Both the position numbers and the translations under genes were made by a program. The notes under the pieces were generated by a model. It had not been told where the DNA came from and made no database searches. It saw nothing but the letters and a program-made list of their open reading frames with translations. From a virus, in IMG/VR virus record IMGVR_UViG_3300047376_000451, positions 1 through 37,219 of that record: a stretch of 37,219 nt of DNA; one strand, given 5' to 3'. Of the stretch, positions 1-37,219 are shown one piece after another. Numbering within the stretch: the stretch's first letter is position 1; the number at the start of each line of letters is the position of its first letter.

Positions 1-137
1 GGTTCAAGTTGCGCGGGCACAGGGAGGAAAACCCGCTTGAGGTGCAGACGTGGACGTCGAAACCACTCTGAGCAAGACCAAGGTAAACTTTTTTCAAAGA
101 AAATGCAAATAGCTGCATTTAGGGGGTTGTACCTATG

Positions 138-165
138 TTAACATTGTGTTAACTTAAGGTATAAA
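138..165 (+). promoter_or_regulatory. Sigma70-like promoter with CtrA-like box (copy A)
   Basis: A -35 TTAACA (138-143) is separated by 16 bases from a -10 TATAAA (160-165). The sequence GTTAACATTGTGTTAAC at 137-153 overlaps the -35 and fits the TTAA-N7-TTAA(C) form known for CtrA. In the second copy the spacing and half-sites are kept while three of the seven central bases change. This promoter would drive the rightward gene at 206. CtrA binding is inferred from the motif only. Confidence 0.65.
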
Positions 166-171
166 TCAACA

Positions 172-185
172 GGGGCTGCGGCCCC
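172..185 (+). promoter_or_regulatory. 5' leader hairpin before the ribosome-binding site
   Basis: GGGGC-TGCG-GCCCC forms a 5-bp stem with a 4-base loop about 10 bases before the GGGAGG ribosome-binding site (195-200). It is identical in the second copy at 36332-36345. It could modulate translation or mRNA stability; no known family is recognised. Confidence 0.4.
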
Positions 186-205
186 GCAACGCTCGGGAGG
201 GCAAC

Positions 206-715
206 ATGACTATCAACGAACTCATCACCTACTTAAACGAAATGCCATCATCTGGCTTTGCTTTGCACTGCTACGACGAAGACGATGACTTCAGCGATGA
301 CGACGATTGGGTCGATACCGCGTCACCATACACACGCAACGACGGCGGTCGCGCCGCGTCAGGCCGCAAGGGCAGCGCCGGAGATTGCGGCGTGCGTGCA
401 ATGGCCATCGCGCTGGGCCTCGACTACGACGCCTGCTACAAAGAGCTGGCCCAAGCCAACAAAGACGCCGGACGCGCCAAGTCAATGCGTCGTGGCATTA
501 TGAAATCAGACTTTGACAAAGTGCTGGCGCGCTACGGCTGGGTCTGGCACTCAGCGCCAAAGTTTGACGGGCGCAAGGCGCGCTGCTCAGACATGCCAGC
601 GGGCGCTGTCATCGCGCGGCAGTCTCGCCACTTCGTCGCCGTCATCGACGGCCAGCCGCATGACACTTGGGATTGCTCCGGCAAGATGGTCTACGGCTAC
701 TGGCACAAAGCCTAA
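206..715 (+). CDS. Papain-like cysteine peptidase-like protein
   Basis: A 169-residue protein that I assign tentatively to the papain/C39-like fold. After an acidic N-terminal stretch (residues 24-37 rich in D/E) comes GDCGVRA with a candidate nucleophile C61 at the head of a helix, then a candidate general base H142 in RHFVAVIDG and an acidic residue D153. This Cys-His-Asp order is typical of papain-like peptidases and amidases. The start is ATG at 206 after GGGAGG. It is the first gene behind a strong-looking promoter, runs opposite to nearly all other genes, and overlaps the TerL stop tail to tail in a shared CTAA. A different protein with the same Cys-His-Asp plan occupies this locus in the other copy (36366). 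A role against the host or in processing is a guess. Activity is not shown. Confidence 0.6.
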   Translation: MTINELITYLNEMPSSGFALHCYDEDDDFSDDDDWVDTASPYTRNDGGRAASGRKGSAGDCGVRAMAIALGLDYDACYKELAQANKDAGRAKSMRRGIMKSDFDKVLARYGWVWHSAPKFDGRKARCSDMPAGAVIARQSRHFVAVIDGQPHDTWDCSGKMVYGYWHKA

Positions 716-2133
716 ACGACCCCGCGTATGCCCCTGCGAAGGGGCGCGCCCCACCCGCCAACCTTAGAACCAAAATGCATCGCCGTGTGGTCTGTCGCCA
801 AAGACAGGCACACGGCGTCGGCGCGATCTGGTGAGGCAACGCGCCGCTTCTTCATGCTGTCCTTGCTCTCGACCTGCATCTTACCGCTCGACGTGAAATG
901 ATATCGCGGCGCCGCCAGCTCAGCATATAACGCGTCGTCACGCGGCAGCTTAACATCCATACCCTCCAGCCACGCCTTTGCCTTGAACCACAGCTCCGCG
1001 CGCAGGTTCACATATGTCTGGTTCGCCGCAGCGCGCTCCGACACGTTCAAGCCACGCGCCGGCAAGCCGATCTCGCGCAGCCGATCCAGCACGCCGGCGC
1101 CAAACCCGTTGCTATCCACAATGATCTCCTGCGGGCGCTTGTCAACCGGCAGCGCGTCATATTCCGCCTTCACGGCGCCCGTGAGCTGCATCAAATCGAG
1201 GTTACGCCACACGCTGAGCGGATGCACGACGGGGCCCTGACGCTTAGCCAAGACAGACGCATCGCCGCCCTGACGCGCAACATCCAATCCCCATATGCTC
1301 GCCGTGTTCTCATGCACACGCACGTCGCTGGCCATGGCAGCCTCGATCAGCGAGACAGGTATCACCGTGTCCTCTTCGGATGGCGGGAAATTACCAAGAA
1401 CGCGCACATGATAAGCGGGGCTATCGATTCCGTAGCGGCGCTGCATATCCTCCACAAAGTCATCGCTGACGCGCGGGCTGTCAACGCAGGAGACATGCAT
1501 CGTGTGCCAGTCATCGCGCAGCCGATTGTGCGTCTCGTAGAAGAACCCCGTGTTACGCGTGGGGTTGCCCGTCAGCACCGTCGTCGCCGTGTGGCCCGAC
1601 ATCGACCCACTGGCAGCCTCAAACACCGCCTCGGGTATCCCGCTGGCCTCGTCAGCCAGAAGCAGCACAGAGGGGCTGTGAACGCCGGCGAGGGCCTCGG
1701 GCTGCTCGGCGCGGCTGGTGCGGCACGAAATAAACGTGCTTTCGGGGTGGCTCTTCAGCTCGATCCGATCAGACTTCACCTCCAGCAAACTGTCAAACGG
1801 CGGCTTCAGCCTCTTGGCCAATGCCTTCATCTCAGCGAACAGCGCATCAAACAGCTGCGCGCTGGTGGGCGCCGTGACAACCGTCTTGCTCGGCACGCGC
1901 ATCAAAACGTGCCACAGGGCAGCCATGGCAACGCCGGTACTCTTGCCAACGCCGTGGCCGCTGCGCACGCTCACGCGGCGTATGGCAGGCGCTGAGACGG
2001 CGTCAAGCAGCTCAACCTGCCACTCGTCGGGCTCGATGCCAATGACCTCCTCGGCAAAGCGCACAGGGTCATCACGATAGCGACGCATGAGCGCCAGAAA
2101 CGGGTTATCGCTGGGGGTGGGGGTGCTGGTCAT
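712..2133 (-). CDS. terL: Terminase large subunit
   Basis: The 473-residue packaging motor cuts concatemeric DNA and pumps it into the procapsid through the portal. The N-terminal ATPase has Walker A SGHGVGKS (residues 58-65) and Walker B LLLADE ending at D161-E162. The C-terminal RNase H-like nuclease shows D284 in WGLDVARQGGD, D340 in IIVDSNGFG, and SPDRADA around residues 434-440, the expected acidic cluster. Length is normal for the family. The ATG at 2133 has AGGAG about 11 bases upstream, which is rather far. It lies downstream of terS across a 343-base non-coding gap and is convergent with the gene at 206. A second, diverged TerL C-terminus lies at the right edge of the window. Confidence 0.95.
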   Translation of the reverse strand: MTSTPTPSDNPFLALMRRYRDDPVRFAEEVIGIEPDEWQVELLDAVSAPAIRRVSVRSGHGVGKSTGVAMAALWHVLMRVPSKTVVTAPTSAQLFDALFAEMKALAKRLKPPFDSLLEVKSDRIELKSHPESTFISCRTSRAEQPEALAGVHSPSVLLLADEASGIPEAVFEAASGSMSGHTATTVLTGNPTRNTGFFYETHNRLRDDWHTMHVSCVDSPRVSDDFVEDMQRRYGIDSPAYHVRVLGNFPPSEEDTVIPVSLIEAAMASDVRVHENTASIWGLDVARQGGDASVLAKRQGPVVHPLSVWRNLDLMQLTGAVKAEYDALPVDKRPQEIIVDSNGFGAGVLDRLREIGLPARGLNVSERAAANQTYVNLRAELWFKAKAWLEGMDVKLPRDDALYAELAAPRYHFTSSGKMQVESKDSMKKRRVASPDRADAVCLSLATDHTAMHFGSKVGGWGAPLRRGIRGVV

Positions 2134-9274: not shown

Positions 9275-9601
9275 TTAGGCGGTCGCCTTGCGCCATTCAA
9301 TGGCGCAATCAAGATGCCAATCAGATGCCAAGTGATCTGCTTTATTCTGGTCAAGCTCTTGAAAAAACTCTTTGCCTGTCATGCCTTGAGAAATACATTT
9401 CTCAACAAAGTATTTCGGCGCTTCGACAAGATTTTTAACCGCATCGATAATATCAACTTTTGAAGTGTAGAAATTATCGTCTTCAAATAAATCGTTGCCG
9501 TTTGCATCGAGCAGCCAGTATGACCAGCCATACATGTCACGTTGTGTACCGATGGTGACGCCTTTTGTGGTTGCGATTTTTCTAAGCTCATTGATTGTCA
9601 T
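9275..9601 (-). CDS. Hypothetical early protein
   Basis: A 108-residue protein, unrecognised. It begins MTINELRKIATTKG and has a central acidic WLLDANGNDLFEDDN segment and a helical C-terminal half. Its first residues MTINEL match those of the peptidase-like gene at 206, probably by chance. The ATG at 9601 follows GGAGG by nine bases. Its codons are clearly more AT-rich than those of the neighbouring replication genes, which hints at a separate origin. It is driven by the promoter at 9628-9659. Confidence 0.65.
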   Translation of the reverse strand: MTINELRKIATTKGVTIGTQRDMYGWSYWLLDANGNDLFEDDNFYTSKVDIIDAVKNLVEAPKYFVEKCISQGMTGKEFFQELDQNKADHLASDWHLDCAIEWRKATA

Positions 9602-9627: not shown

Positions 9628-9659
9628 GTTAACATAATGTTAACATCAGGAGATTGCAA
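9628..9659 (-). promoter_or_regulatory. Leftward early promoter with full CtrA-like box
   Basis: The sequence GTTAACATAATGTTAAC (9628-9644) is a palindrome apart from its centre and fits TTAA-N7-TTAAC on both strands. On the minus strand a -35 TTGCAA (9659-9654), 17 bases and -10 TATGTT (9636-9631) place the box over the -10; an alternative -10 TATAAC lies at 9625-9620. A protein bound here would compete with polymerase or recruit it. It drives the gene at 9601. Confidence 0.6.
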
Positions 9660-11854: not shown

Positions 11855-12013
11855 TTAAAACATATCTTCTGGATTAGTATCATCAGCCACAACGCGAGGT
11901 GACATAATATCATCAAAAGCTTTAGCCGCCTCTTCGTAAGATGAATATATAATACCTTCGTCTTTAGCTTCGCTCCAAAAATCTGCTAAAGCTTCTTCAT
12001 AATAGTTGTTCAT
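11855..12013 (-). CDS. Small acidic early protein
   Basis: A 52-residue acidic protein starting MNNYYEEALADFWSEAKDEG and ending in an acidic NPEDMF. It is AT-rich compared with most neighbours. AGGAGG lies about five bases before the ATG at 12013, and the promoter with a CtrA-like box is directly upstream, so this is the first gene of the leftward early transcript. Small acidic early proteins sometimes act as host-enzyme inhibitors or DNA mimics; nothing here proves that. Confidence 0.65.
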   Translation of the reverse strand: MNNYYEEALADFWSEAKDEGIIYSSYEEAAKAFDDIMSPRVVADDTNPEDMF

Positions 12014-12037: not shown

Positions 12038-12068
12038 GTTAACATAAAGATAACACAGCACGGTGCAA
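12038..12068 (-). promoter_or_regulatory. Leftward early promoter with CtrA-like box
   Basis: Minus strand: -35 TTGCAC (12068-12063), 16 bases, -10 TATGTT (12046-12041). The box GTTAACATAAAGATAAC (12038-12054) has one mismatch to TTAA-N7-TTAAC on the plus strand and overlaps the -10, the same arrangement as at 9628. It would drive the leftward early operon from 12013. Confidence 0.6.
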
Positions 12069-12122: not shown

Positions 12123-12503
12123 ATGCAGTATGTTGCGCGCGTGGCCAACAGCATCAACGTCGGACGTGCAGGCGAGTTTCTCGTTGCCGCCGAGCTAGAG
12201 CAGCGCGGGATACGCTGCCATCGGGTAGACATGCAGGACGATGACCTATGGGTAAAGTCGGCCAGCGGTGAGCTGTTGACCATGCAAGTGAAGGCGACCG
12301 TTGAGCCTCGCACCGAGCGAACCCGTGCGGCGCGCTACATTTTCACACGCGCAAACGGCGATGCGCAAATATTTGCGTATGTGGCTCTGGATATACGATT
12401 GTTTATACTGCGCGGCGCGCCAAGCGGTAAGACGGTGCGCATCAAGCCCGCCGAGTTTACACCGCAGGCCATGGCGGATAGTATCGCGGCACATCTGTAT
12501 TGA
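12123..12503 (+). CDS. PD-(D/E)XK nuclease-like protein
   Basis: A 126-residue protein with the core of the PD-(D/E)XK fold: GRAGEFLVAAELEQRG (Glu in helix 1), DDDLWV (Asp) and LLTMQVKAT (QxK), resembling archaeal resolvase or restriction-type nucleases. It is one of the few rightward genes and is divergent from the early operon. No ribosome-binding site precedes ATG 12123, while TATAAA (12108-12113) ends only nine bases before it, so the mRNA may be leaderless. A GTG at 12141 is an alternative start. Roles in junction processing or host DNA breakdown are possible. Confidence 0.7.
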   Translation: MQYVARVANSINVGRAGEFLVAAELEQRGIRCHRVDMQDDDLWVKSASGELLTMQVKATVEPRTERTRAARYIFTRANGDAQIFAYVALDIRLFILRGAPSGKTVRIKPAEFTPQAMADSIAAHLY

Positions 12504-20582: not shown

Positions 20583-21056
20583 CTAATCTATGCGTTCAAA
20601 GTGCGGGCCATCTATAAAGGGCCTGCGCGATTGTGACCTGCGAAGGTCGATGTAAGCGTTCATAGCCTCTTCCATCGTTCCTTCCCACTTTCTGATATCC
20701 ATTGGGTATGGCATTTCGGCTGTAGCCCACGCCGCACCCCAACATATAGGCACATTGAGCTGTATGGCCGCCTCTTTGATGGCATCCGCCAAATCATCAT
20801 AGACCGACAGCTCCCAACTCGCCCTGCCATTTATGAAGGCCATAATATCGAATGCCTTGCCCTCAAGGTGCTTTGATTTCATGGTTTGACTTGCGCCTTT
20901 GGCGACCAGCTCCTTTTGCTGTTCAATGGTTCTCATCCCCTGCACCACACCAAAATCGGTCCTCGACAGCGTGATAGCCATCTTCACAACCGCCTGCAGG
21001 CCATCGTCAATCCCTTCAAGCCTATCAAGGCTGCGTCTGCTCAATTTAAACGTCAT
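20583..21056 (-). CDS. M15-family endolysin (L-Ala-D-Glu/D-Ala-D-Ala-type peptidase)
   Basis: A 157-residue peptidoglycan peptidase. The zinc motif SKHLEGKAFD gives H63 and D70, and DGPHFER near the C-terminus gives H152, the third ligand, matching the M15 (VanY/T5 endolysin) pattern SxHxxGxAxD ... H. It has no signal peptide, so it needs the holin encoded just upstream, with which it overlaps by ATGA. It cuts the host wall at the end of infection. Confidence 0.9.
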   Translation of the reverse strand: MTFKLSRRSLDRLEGIDDGLQAVVKMAITLSRTDFGVVQGMRTIEQQKELVAKGASQTMKSKHLEGKAFDIMAFINGRASWELSVYDDLADAIKEAAIQLNVPICWGAAWATAEMPYPMDIRKWEGTMEEAMNAYIDLRRSQSRRPFIDGPHFERID

Positions 21057-25106: not shown

Positions 25107-26621
25107 TTACTTAACCCCATAAAATTTAATACTGCCTTTAGCCAAAAAAGTACCCGTTGAACCAAAGTAACTAGCATAAAAAGTTATCGATGTTGTAGAT
25201 GTGGTAATCCCGTAGTCTGCAGGGCCACCCTGTGTCACGTTATATGAGTAACGCGTCAAATTGGTTTGAAGAGTTGATGCTATTCCAGTAAATCCGTAGC
25301 CAGTAGATAAATCAATTTCTGTACTTGTGTTATTGAGAAATTGAGACCCATATTGGCTTATCATAAATTGTCCACGGGTACTATTTTGCTGCAAATAAAC
25401 ATATGCATTGTTATTTTGTAAGCCTAATCCTATAGCATATATTTTAAGAAATTTGTAACTACTCAGGTTTAAGCTACTAAGTGTAATACTAGAACCGGAA
25501 GTAACAGTTAAGGTTCCTAATAAGGTAGTTTCACCAGATGCGCCAGTTGGCCCCGTTGGCCCCGTGCTTCCCGCGCTTCCCTGCGGCCCCGTTGGGCCCG
25601 TTGGACCGGTTGGGCCCGTTGGGCCGGTGACAGAGTTGCCTTGAGGCCCCGTTGGCCCCGTTGGCCCCGTTGGCCCCGTTGACCCCGTATTTCCCTGTGG
25701 CCCTTGTGGCCCTTGTGAGCCTGTCGGGCCGGTCGGGCCGGTCGGGCCGGTCGGGCCATCATTGCCGTCAGCCCCCGCAGGGCCAGTGGCGCCTTGCGGC
25801 CCAGTCGGGCCAGTAGGCCCAGTAGGCCCAGTAGGGCCTTGGAGCGCGGCATTGGTAATTGTTTGCTTTTCCCAAGCCCCTGCGCTCACGTCATAAACAG
25901 GAATGAGATCAGAACCTGTTGCATCTGTACCAGTAGAAAACGCAGTTAAAGATGATCCAACATTTCCAGTGTCGGTAACATCCGCACTGGCCTCAATACC
26001 ATTCAGCTTGCTGTGGTCTGCATCAGTGAAAACATTGCTATCACTTGCAGCCTCTACAGCCGCTCTAATCTCAGCGTTAGTTTGATCGCCAGTTGCACCG
26101 CTTTCAATGCCGTCTAGCTTTGTATGATCGGCATCCGTAAAAACATTGCTATCGCTCGCCGCTTCAACCGCCGCCCTGATTTCAGCGTTAGTTTGATCGC
26201 CAGTAGCGCCGGCCTCTATGCCATCGAGCTTCGTTCCATCCGCTGCAACATCGCGTCCGTCAACGGTTCCGCTGATTGCAAGACTGCCTGTCAGGCTAAC
26301 ATTGCCACTAGCATCACGCACCAAATACTTTTCAGCCGGCACAGTCACAAAAATATCTTTTGAGCCGGACGGCCAATCTACTGCGTTATCGCTGTTGGAG
26401 CTTTCCAGAATAGTGTCGCGCGAAAGCGTAGCTCCAGACGCAGTAAATGTTCCGATACCAACCTCGTACAAGCTGCCATCTGTACAAGCATAATAAGTTG
26501 TATTCCCGTTCCCAACGGCTGCAAACGACTGGAAGCCGTCTGAGGCGCCGGCGAGCGTATAGGTGCCGGTAGACGTTGTCGTGGTTGTTTCTTTGACGCG
26601 GTCAGCAATTACCAAGGCCAT
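25107..26621 (-). CDS. Collagen-like tail fibre protein
   Basis: A 504-residue fibre. Residues 1-105 are an N-terminal domain common in phage fibres (virion anchor). Residues ~131-205 hold two 36-residue repeats ([20 protein letters not shown] type). Residues 262-365 are about 33 Gly-X-Y triplets, mostly GPT and GPQ, with one interruption at GNSVT; prolines occur only at X. Residues ~366-504 are a beta-rich tip, the likely receptor-binding part. The triplet region should form a trimeric collagen helix. Chaperone-like genes follow directly. GPT-rich collagens in bacteria can carry sugars on Thr; that is not shown here. Confidence 0.9.
25527..25838 (-). repeat. Nine-base tandem repeats coding for Gly-Pro-Thr triplets
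   Basis: Imperfect tandem 9-base units (GGCCCCGTT and variants on the plus strand) encode residues 262-365 of the fibre. Blocks of units are nearly identical (for example around 25650-25680 and 25730-25755), so slippage or recombination could change shaft length in multiples of three residues. Confidence 0.8.
26006..26231 (-). repeat. Tandem ~111-base repeat inside the fibre gene
   Basis: Two adjacent units encode the 36-37-residue segment with [20 protein letters not shown] and FTDADH; the nucleotide copies differ at many third positions, so the duplication is old or imported. A partial third start (DGIEASADV) precedes the collagen region. Confidence 0.75.
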
Positions 26622-35927: not shown

Positions 35928-36079
35928 TACTTCTTGCGGGCGGTCATCGTCCGCTTCGTCGTTGTGCCGTACTGCTTCGGCTTCTTCGGCTTCGACTTCT
36001 TTTTCTTTTTCATCGCAGCGGCTGCAGCCTTTTTGCCTGCGGCTGTGTACGGGTACGTTTTCCCATCTACATTTGGCAT
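35927..36079 (-). CDS. Small lysine-rich protein, first gene of the late operon
   Basis: A 50-residue gene found by direct reading: MPNVDGKTYPYTAAGKKAAA followed by a run of Lys/Ala/Pro, ending TTTKRTMTARKK. The ATG at 36079 has GGAG six bases before it; ATG 36091 is an alternative. The N-terminal MPNVDGKxYPYT motif is familiar from small phage proteins. Probably nucleic-acid binding by charge; function unknown. Confidence 0.65.
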   Translation of the reverse strand: MPNVDGKTYPYTAAGKKAAAAAMKKKKKSKPKKPKQYGTTTKRTMTARKK

Positions 36080-36133: not shown

Positions 36134-36161
36134 CCCGCGCGCTGGGAGGGCGTTCGCGGGG
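36133..36161 (-). terminator. Intrinsic terminator at the map junction (leftward)
   Basis: On the minus strand CCCCGCG, a 15-base loop and CGCGGGG are followed by TTTCTTTTT, the form of a rho-independent terminator. On a circular map it would stop leftward transcripts coming from terL after they cross the rightward gene at 206 and the repeat. The first two bases of the window (GG) are the remains of the same stem in copy A. Confidence 0.6.
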
Positions 36162-36369
36162 TTCAAGTTGCGCGGGCACAGGGAGGAAAACCCGCTTGAG
36201 GTGCAGACGTGGACGTCGAAACCACTCTGAGCAAGACCAAGGTAAACTTTTTTCAAAGAAAATGCAAATAGCTGCATTTAGGGGGGTTGCACCTATGTTA
36301 ACAAAATGTTAACGTCAGGTATAAATCAACAGGGGCTGCGGCCCCGCAACGCTCGGGAGGGCAACATGA
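36160..36369. repeat. Direct repeat copy B
   Basis: Second copy of the 1-210 block, with one inserted G in a G-run, one T-to-C change, three changes in the centre of the CtrA-like box and two just after it. The match stops at the ATGAC of the downstream gene. The distance between copies gives a unit length of about 36,160 bases. Confidence 0.95.
36298..36325 (+). promoter_or_regulatory. Sigma70-like promoter with CtrA-like box (copy B)
   Basis: -35 TTAACA (36298-36303), 16 bases, -10 TATAAA (36320-36325). The box reads GTTAACAAAATGTTAAC (36297-36313). Compared with copy A, both GTTAAC halves and their spacing are unchanged although three central bases differ. Confidence 0.65.
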
Positions 36370-37091
36370 CCAAACTAAAAATCAAATCAATCAACCACGG
36401 CGAAACCAAAGCAGACAAAAACCGCTACTGCGGCCCCGCCGTCATCAGCGCCATCACAGGCATGACCACTGGCGAGGCTGCGCGCCTGATCCGTCACGTC
36501 AGCGGGCGCAAGTCTATCAAAGGCTCTTCTGTCTGGGAGGTGACGCGCTCCCTCGAAATGTGCGGCGTCGACAGCAAGCGCGAAAGCTTCGGCCTCGCGC
36601 TGGGGCGTAGCAAAGGCCCGACGCTGGCGGCGTGGCTCAAGCACACCGTCAAGCAGCGCACCGCCGACCGCGTATTCCTGATCGTCGCGGGCTGGCACTG
36701 GCAGCTTGTGCAAGGCCGCCGCATCGTGTGTGGCATCCTCGGCGATCCCACTTCGATCCGCGACAAGCGCGTCAAGCGCCGCGCACGCGTCGCCGAGGTG
36801 ATCGAGCTGCACTCAATGGGCGCGATCACCAAGGCCATGGCAGCGGCCAAGCCAAAGCGCGCAGCGCAGCCTGCCGACAGCGACCGCGCTAAGGCAAAGC
36901 GTCTGGCCGCCAAGCTCGGCTTCACCATCGAAAGCCAATACGACACATATTTCGACGGCAGCCGCCAATACATGTATTGGATCGACGGCGCAGATAAATA
37001 CGTCGATGAAGGCGTGGTCGAGTATTCGTGCCACTACTCATGGTACGACGTCCTCGACAGCCTGCAGGCCATCGAGGCGCACAAGCCCTAA
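36366..37091 (+). CDS. Papain-like cysteine peptidase-like protein, alternative allele
   Basis: A 241-residue protein starting MTKLKIKSINHGETKADKN. NRYCGPAVISAITG carries candidate nucleophile C22 at a helix start, GWHWQLVQG candidate base H111, and ILGDPTS candidate D127: the same Cys-His-Asp plan as the gene at 206 but with almost no other similarity and ~70 extra residues, including a basic central part (residues 131-200) and a Tyr/Trp-rich C-terminus. Promoter, leader and ribosome-binding site are those of the repeat. It ends in the same CTAA convergent overlap with a TerL C-terminus. Function unknown; amidase or transglutaminase-like activity are alternatives. Confidence 0.6.
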   Translation: MTKLKIKSINHGETKADKNRYCGPAVISAITGMTTGEAARLIRHVSGRKSIKGSSVWEVTRSLEMCGVDSKRESFGLALGRSKGPTLAAWLKHTVKQRTADRVFLIVAGWHWQLVQGRRIVCGILGDPTSIRDKRVKRRARVAEVIELHSMGAITKAMAAAKPKRAAQPADSDRAKAKRLAAKLGFTIESQYDTYFDGSRQYMYWIDGADKYVDEGVVEYSCHYSWYDVLDSLQAIEAHKP

Positions 37092-37219
37092 GCAATCCCC
37101 TGCAGGTTGCGCTTGAGCGCGCCACGCCAACGTGACATCGGCCCGCTCAGGGCCGTTGCCGCGTCTGACGCCATCGTCAGGCACACGGCGTCGGCAAGGT
37201 CAGGCGAGCGCAGGCCGCG
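37088..37219 (-). CDS. terL: Terminase large subunit, diverged allele (C-terminal fragment cut by window edge)
   Basis: The last 43 residues of a TerL, open at the window end. RSPDLADAVCLTMASDAA aligns with SPDRADAVCLSLATDHT of the complete TerL at 712, and the ends (WRGALKRNLQGIA against WGAPLRRGIRGVV) are recognisably related but clearly diverged. This shows the right end of the window comes from a different terminase allele than the left end. Confidence 0.85.
   Translation of the reverse strand, partial: RGLRSPDLADAVCLTMASDAATALSGPMSRWRGALKRNLQGIA

Follow-up and report, generated by a model that had tools for sequence, protein, structure and literature searches.

A fixed leader with a CtrA-type motif beside terL of uncultured marine phages precedes either of two exchangeable genes modelled as papain-like

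Morons of tailed phages are extra genes which have their own promoter, lie on the opposite strand and are present or absent in relatives. Control by CtrA is known from alphaproteobacterial phages: TTAA-N7-TTAA is the CtrA consensus, and CtrA binding and regulation of phage promoters, discussed as 'lytic deferment', have been shown for PhiCbK, Cp1R7A-A1 and vB_BsubS-Delta (PMC9437464). In Caulobacter, activating CtrA sites are located near -35 and repressing half-sites over -10 (PMC6180460). Loci of rapid gene turnover have been described in the diversity hotspots of P2 and P4 (PMC9122126). Here we analyse a gene position next to terL in uncultured marine phages, where one and the same control region leads into either of two unrelated-looking genes with products modelled as papain-like, which suggests an interchangeable host-directed enzyme that is switched on together with the early virus genes. 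New here is that, by its motif, the fixed promoter has a CtrA-type full site like the early/replication promoters of the same phages. No report of this terL-adjacent slot was found among the literature matches listed, and the paper on phage CRP-901 (PMC10149686) mentions none of peptidase, CtrA, promoter or moron.

The window, i.e. the whole stretch of DNA that was analysed, is an IMG/VR virus record of 37,219 bases. Its positions 1-210 repeat positions 36160-36370 (126 nt at 100% identity, then 89 nt at 93%), and a contig 99.8% identical to the window (L081) spans the circular join and leads into the gene at the left end. Therefore, the record maps as a circle, and its left and right ends represent different haplotypes. 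The preliminary description had proposed two alleles at one locus with a common leader and a common convergent overlap with the terL stop, and all of this was borne out. From a shared ATG, the left end encodes a protein of 169 aa (allele 1, 206-715, plus strand) and the right end one of 241 aa (allele 2, 36366-37091, plus strand), the latter behind the second, end-repeated copy of the leader (36160-36370, plus strand). The CTAA at 712-715 and at 37088-37091 consists of the TAA of each allele overlapping the TAG of a convergent terL. At the left end this is terL type A (712-2133, minus strand), while 37088-37219 (minus strand) shows the 43 C-terminal residues of a differing version, terL type B.

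The proximal leader of allele 1 (110-205, plus strand) is missing in relatives with an empty slot, the boundary lying near 109. It holds the 17-bp motif GTTAAC-N5-GTTAAC at 137-153, which contains TTAA-N7-TTAA and, as a motif, matches the published CtrA full site exactly, including the spacing (PMC9437464). Downstream, on the plus strand, are TATAAA at 160-165, by its position a likely -10 box though without a consensus sigma-70 match, the hairpin GGGGC-TGCG-GCCCC with a UNCG-type loop at 172-185, and the ribosome-binding site GGGAGGG at 195-201. The allele 2 leader has an exact copy of the motif at 36297-36313 and its hairpin at 36332-36345 (plus strand). In most of the rows compared, the 17-bp site ends a few bases before the TATA. 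With the sigma-70 consensus as query, 1-800 contained no promoter and a single, unrelated match came up at 36066; Rfam and tRNA searches gave no match. A C(UNCG)G-type hairpin with a TGCG or TTCG loop just 5' of the ribosome-binding site is kept in two lineages (the two window copies; L032, L033, L034 and L041).

Exact copies of the 17-bp site begin at only three places in the window, 137, 36297 and 9628, and 0.003 GTTAAC pairs per window are expected under a Markov model. The copy at 9628-9644 lies upstream of the minus-strand gene start at 9601, and a site with one mismatch (12038-12054) lies 25 nt upstream of the minus-strand start at 12013; both are thus 25-27 nt upstream of starts in the exonuclease and primase-helicase cluster, which is called early/replication from its gene content. 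Among the best 80 of 326 terL relatives, the GTTAAC pair occurs in 38 loci and, of all spacings from 0 to 15, at spacing 5 only. When up to one mismatch was allowed, the 16 near-full relatives had 42 sites, with 14 in the slot zone, 26 upstream of the exonuclease operon and 2 elsewhere (both zones were drawn after the sites had been seen), and the reversed-pattern control gave 0 sites in all 16. One of the two sites elsewhere is in G009, where the exonuclease was not found. The slot site is missing in 3/16 near-full relatives, namely the empty-slot G006 and G008, and G010 (L037), which has no ORF overlapping the terL stop. CtrA-type control of the slot promoter appears somewhat probable, and a promoter of the early type is more in keeping with host takeover than with a structural or lysis role. 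The site was also considered as a property of the gene families themselves and rejected as such, since TTAA-N7-TTAA occurs in the upstream 250 nt of 5/69 viral and 0/64 bacterial family 1 genes and of 7/78 family 2 genes, compared with 1.7% of random stretches. Two further observations concern the early region: a lone plus-strand ORF of 126 aa (12123-12503) without Pfam or PHROG match lies just beyond the 12038 site, and the primase-helicase homologue of G013, the record of L047, is interrupted by in-frame stops.

Either allele 1 (L001, L003 and L004) or allele 2 (L002 and L128) is found in contigs whose two flanks both match the window at 96-97% identity. Between L001 and L002 only the slot gene differs, and in all these contigs the exchanged stretch runs from the start codon to the terL stop. 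Judged from these alignments, the exchange is real and recent. In relatives, terL type B is 55% identical to type A over the full-length protein and 71-75% identical in DNA. Since all four combinations of allele and terL type were found, with allele 1 next to type A (L001, L003, L004) or type B (L084, L085) and allele 2 next to type A (L002, L009, L010, L016, L018) or type B (L132, L133, L136), cargo and terL recombine at their junction. Compared with window 712-2133, terL has been swapped for the 55% identical version in L132, L133, L136 and L084 within flanks of about 80-93% identical DNA.

An empty slot with one common junction after the terL stop was found in 12 loci among the best 80 of 326 terL relatives. 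In the seven junctions inspected, the position corresponding to window ~109 runs directly to the terL stop, so the unit gained or lost is the promoter together with the gene. As in morons, this unit, its promoter being assigned by motif, is present or absent between conserved genes in near-identical phages. On a terL tree of 96 rows (80 unselected for cargo plus 16 selected for carrying family 1 or 2, the families of alleles 1 and 2), the cargo state changes 24 times, 9 times when only family 1 versus family 2 is counted, and five sets of identical terL proteins occur in more than one cargo state. Only 5/16 near-full relatives have either papain-like family, which makes the slot gene dispensable. 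The fact that neither any tree row (0/96) nor any near-full genome (0/16) contains both families was discarded as a significant sign of mutual exclusion, because a single slot explains it and 10 + 10 of 80 loci are too few. We have high confidence in the slot architecture as described. The ends of nine contigs (L004, L010, L020, L048, L049, L058, L059, L073 and L079) lie upstream of the terL match by no more than 34 bases, which may mark a G-rich assembly break or a genome end.

Next to the terL stop, many kinds of genes are found. In 44 loci among the best 80 of 326 terL relatives, the terL stop overlaps that of an ORF which starts with ATG and is 60 aa or longer, always in the identical register and with TAA in 43 cases and TAG in 1. 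These ORFs form 12 clusters, one of which merges families 1 and 2 through N-terminal residues derived from the leader, so that about 13 slot families can be counted. Families 1 and 2 account for 10 loci each in the same best 80 of 326; the other cargo in the 80 terL loci comprises HNH endonucleases, a NUMOD3-HNH protein, a C5 DNA methyltransferase, one or more HTH proteins and unknowns. The terL slot at large is therefore a general cargo slot, and the idea that it takes one fold only was abandoned for the slot as a whole given about 13 families in 44 of the 80 loci. In one clade, a 199-aa 2OG-Fe(II) oxygenase follows terL (L041, 2291-2887), with the papain-like gene behind it and a similar stop overlap. 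The phiM5 gene next to terL, annotated as 'putative peptidase', was dismissed as a homologue after alignment, as it lacks the Cys motif; we take it to be HslV-like.

The position defined by the leader behaves differently from the wider slot. When IMG/VR was scanned with nothing but the hairpin-RBS-ATG DNA, 27 contigs were returned, and in 27/27 the leader precedes a papain-like gene (16 of family 1 and 11 of family 2, five of the 27 genes running off their contig). The family 1 genes include a third allele of 148 aa, which is 41% identical to the 169-aa form. With a diverged leader from another lineage, 6/6 contigs were papain-like (4 of family 1, 2 of family 2). When loci were instead chosen by terL, 13/14 of those with a relaxed hairpin leader had a papain-like gene behind it, the exception being a 72-aa gene in L071. 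Since the leader-selected contigs are related to one another, the 27/27 represent few independent events, with at least one swap at each leader. Our survey of related phages agrees with the preliminary description in that two sequence-unrelated families alternate behind the leader, and they do so in two diverged lineages. The further claim of the preliminary description, a slot that keeps one fold, is supported at the leader-defined position, where 33/33 contigs have a papain-like gene, but not for the wider terL slot with its roughly 13 families.

In family 1, seven residues including C61, H142 and D153 are invariant in 57/57 rows from phages and bacteria; this alignment (A3) comprises 55/63 dereplicated rows, the window and L084, and leaves out five long planctomycete proteins, L081, L251 and L255. 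In the allele 1 model (pLDDT 89), C61 starts helix 61-70, H142 starts strand 142-147 and D153 ends strand 150-153, so that Cys at the first core helix, His at a core strand and a third polar residue are placed as in clan CA. The best match in VIA-align was the C39 domain of PCAT1 (Z 7.8, a value within the range which the tool calls common; 103 aligned residues, 3.3 A), and C39 domains ranked first, with C39 leader peptidases and a pseudomurein endoisopeptidase among the structures nearest in fold. By sequence, allele 1 matches phrog_3754 and, weakly, phrog_15863, neither with an assigned function.

In family 2, C22, H111 and C122 are invariant in 42/42 rows (alignment A4, with 40/41 rows, the window and L136, L133 being replaced), and C122 is also found in 9/9 rows that include Roseobacter phage CRP-901, Erythrobacter phage XM05 and two Brevundimonas phages. 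The allele 2 model (pLDDT 93) has C22 at the start of helix 22-31 and H111 at the start of strand 111-116. C122 occupies the third catalytic place at the equivalent strand end, there is no conserved Asp, and D133 is not invariant. As a Cys stands where Asp or Asn is expected, we describe allele 2 as papain-like in fold and not as a canonical triad member; if it is a cysteine hydrolase or transferase, its active site would be unusual. VIA-align placed the C39-type 6mpz first (Z 9.8, 123 aligned, 3.3 A); the second row, which looks unrelated, has the same Z of 9.8, and many C39 rows come next. An extra C-terminal alpha-beta domain (residues 165-240; window 36861-37088 corresponds to residues 166-241) resembles dsRBDs and T7 gp1.2 (7u65_G, Z 6.1, 64 aligned, 2.5 A). 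This domain is missing in some family 2 members (L175, L176).

The two models have the same order of helices and strands, and D153 and C122 each end the strand after the His strand. The Cys-His-Asp plan that had been attributed to both alleles is therefore seen in family 1 (C61, H142, D153) and only in its first two members in family 2, where C122 follows. Likewise, the structure comparison proposed earlier gave a divided answer: C39-type papain folds are the closest matches for either model, and the element order agrees between the two, but the Foldseek E-values of 0.05 for allele 1 and 0.02 for allele 2 are not significant. Neither a sequence relation between the families by BLAST nor a significant profile-profile match (probability 0.3%) was found, and sequence searches of the PDB yielded no significant relative. 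Pfam, NCBIfam, PADLOC and PHROG contained no homologue of either family with an assigned function, PADLOC giving 0 matches for both proteins. The hand-picked family alignments used 23 locus rows from 47 loci (A1) and 32 from 62 (A2). On the models, a papain-like fold shared by the two families is probable. Both proteins would then be cysteine hydrolases or transferases, and a host-directed hydrolase is a tentative proposal, slightly short of even odds.

The host of these uncultured marine phages is probably alphaproteobacterial, because of the CtrA-type sites, the presence of family 2 in phages of Roseobacter, Erythrobacter and Brevundimonas, and L194, a phage-like contig binned to Rhodobacteraceae that has homologues of allele 1 and of the replication genes. 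Family 1 is chromosomal in Polynucleobacter and is also found on Xanthomonas, Alteromonas and Agrobacterium plasmids, and hence need not be a weapon. In Polynucleobacter the homologue has a conserved chromosomal place (L210, L217, L223), and its neighbour is presumably malate synthase G. Planctomycete homologues of family 1 (L212, L228) have about 250 extra residues. Elsewhere in the window, 25107-26621 encodes a tail-like protein that has a long stretch of collagen-like Gly-Pro-Thr repeats.

We propose, with a probability of roughly 0.55, that the slot gene is a moron under CtrA-type early control which encodes interchangeable cysteine hydrolases aimed at a host target. At this position between terL and the next late genes, the sequences show a unit of promoter, hairpin leader, ribosome-binding site and one gene to be present or absent in near-identical phages. 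They also show that the gene is exchanged between start codon and terL stop, and in every contig found one of two sequence-unrelated families, both modelled as papain-like, stands behind the leader. Its promoter bears the motif of the early/replication promoters, and the slot gene may be timed with the early genes by host CtrA or by a phage regulator that recognises this motif. The product would be a cytoplasmic cysteine hydrolase or transferase acting on a host target, and the two families may replace each other because both do the same job.

A neutral recombination hotspot would account for much of the turnover. In that case, the terL end and the leader would be conserved patches for homologous recombination, HNH homing endonucleases might help, and papain-like genes would be common by descent with no selection on their fold. 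The roughly 13 unrelated families that end at the same terL stop in 44 of the best 80 of 326 loci, the HNH and NUMOD3-HNH cargo, the swap of terL itself for type B and the 24 state changes all speak for it, but it leaves aside that papain-like genes occupy 33/33 contigs selected by their leader, that each of the two diverged leaders occurs with either family, and that the unit seems, by motif, to have its own regulated promoter; we regard it as rather unlikely. Slightly less doubtful is the arms race of the preliminary description, in which, shortly after infection, a protein of bacterial immunity or regulation would be cleaved or modified by an anti-defence or host-takeover protease, and changes in host resistance would be followed by exchange of the alleles. 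It is consistent with an accessory, hypervariable gene with an early-type promoter and with a modelled papain-like fold that has no recognised secretion or lysis role. Against it, neither protein has a PADLOC match and homologues are chromosomal in Polynucleobacter or lie on plasmids elsewhere, so the arms race is a hypothesis and not a result. Improbable in our opinion is the most specific version, a 'functional socket' in which a host-CtrA-timed early promoter would accept only cysteine hydrolases of one fold. The Cys-His-Asp family and the Cys-His-Cys family, which is unrelated to it in sequence and has the added dsRBD/T7-gp1.2-like domain, would then displace each other, both disabling the same host or defence target.

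As to the regulator, the 17-bp site may be the operator of a phage-encoded protein instead of host CtrA. As a half-site, GTTAAC exceeds TTAA in length and symmetry, and the sites are few and confined to phage promoters; however, the exact match to the CtrA full site and spacing published in PMC9437464, and the lack of an HTH domain in the 10 early-region and neighbouring window proteins scanned, make this a possible but less favoured reading. As to the enzyme, a murein or leader-peptide peptidase serving lysis or C39-like processing is very improbable, even though C39 leader peptidases and a pseudomurein endoisopeptidase are among the nearest folds, since the phage has its own endolysin (phrog_465, 20586-21056), the slot gene is not fused to a transporter and phages with an empty slot exist.

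This locus is a natural swap experiment, in which two unrelated-looking enzymes stand behind the same DNA in near-identical phages, together with an empty form. If the two families are equivalent, one assay on either should reveal the function. Moreover, CtrA-type sites at early operons and at a cargo gene make host-timed expression of an accessory gene testable in Caulobacter.

Among known systems, the closest solved folds for both models are peptidase C39 and C39-like domains (PCAT1, ComA, 6mpz), although the slot genes stand alone without fusion to an ABC transporter, neither family has a Pfam C39 match, and family 2 lacks the catalytic Asp. The locus resembles the P2/P4 hotspots (PMC9122126) in being a high-turnover locus, of 1-5 kb in those elements, between two conserved genes and close to packaging genes or the packaging site. 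The P2/P4 hotspots, however, lie in prophages and satellites and contain anti-phage systems that have been tested, whereas here no defence gene was recognised and the leader-defined position keeps what is modelled as one fold. With the morons of tailed phages it shares an extra gene with its own promoter on the opposite strand, present or absent in relatives; their promoter is lysogenic, while the one found here is of the early type and no integrase was seen among the window proteins scanned. Finally, TTAA-N7-TTAA at phage promoters is common to this locus and to the CtrA-controlled alphaproteobacterial phages. In those phages the sites are clustered in terminal repeats or in a large gap (PMC9437464), whereas here single sites lie at the early operon and at the cargo gene beside terL, which takes CtrA-type sites beyond phage terminal regions, to early operons and to a cargo gene in uncultured marine phages.
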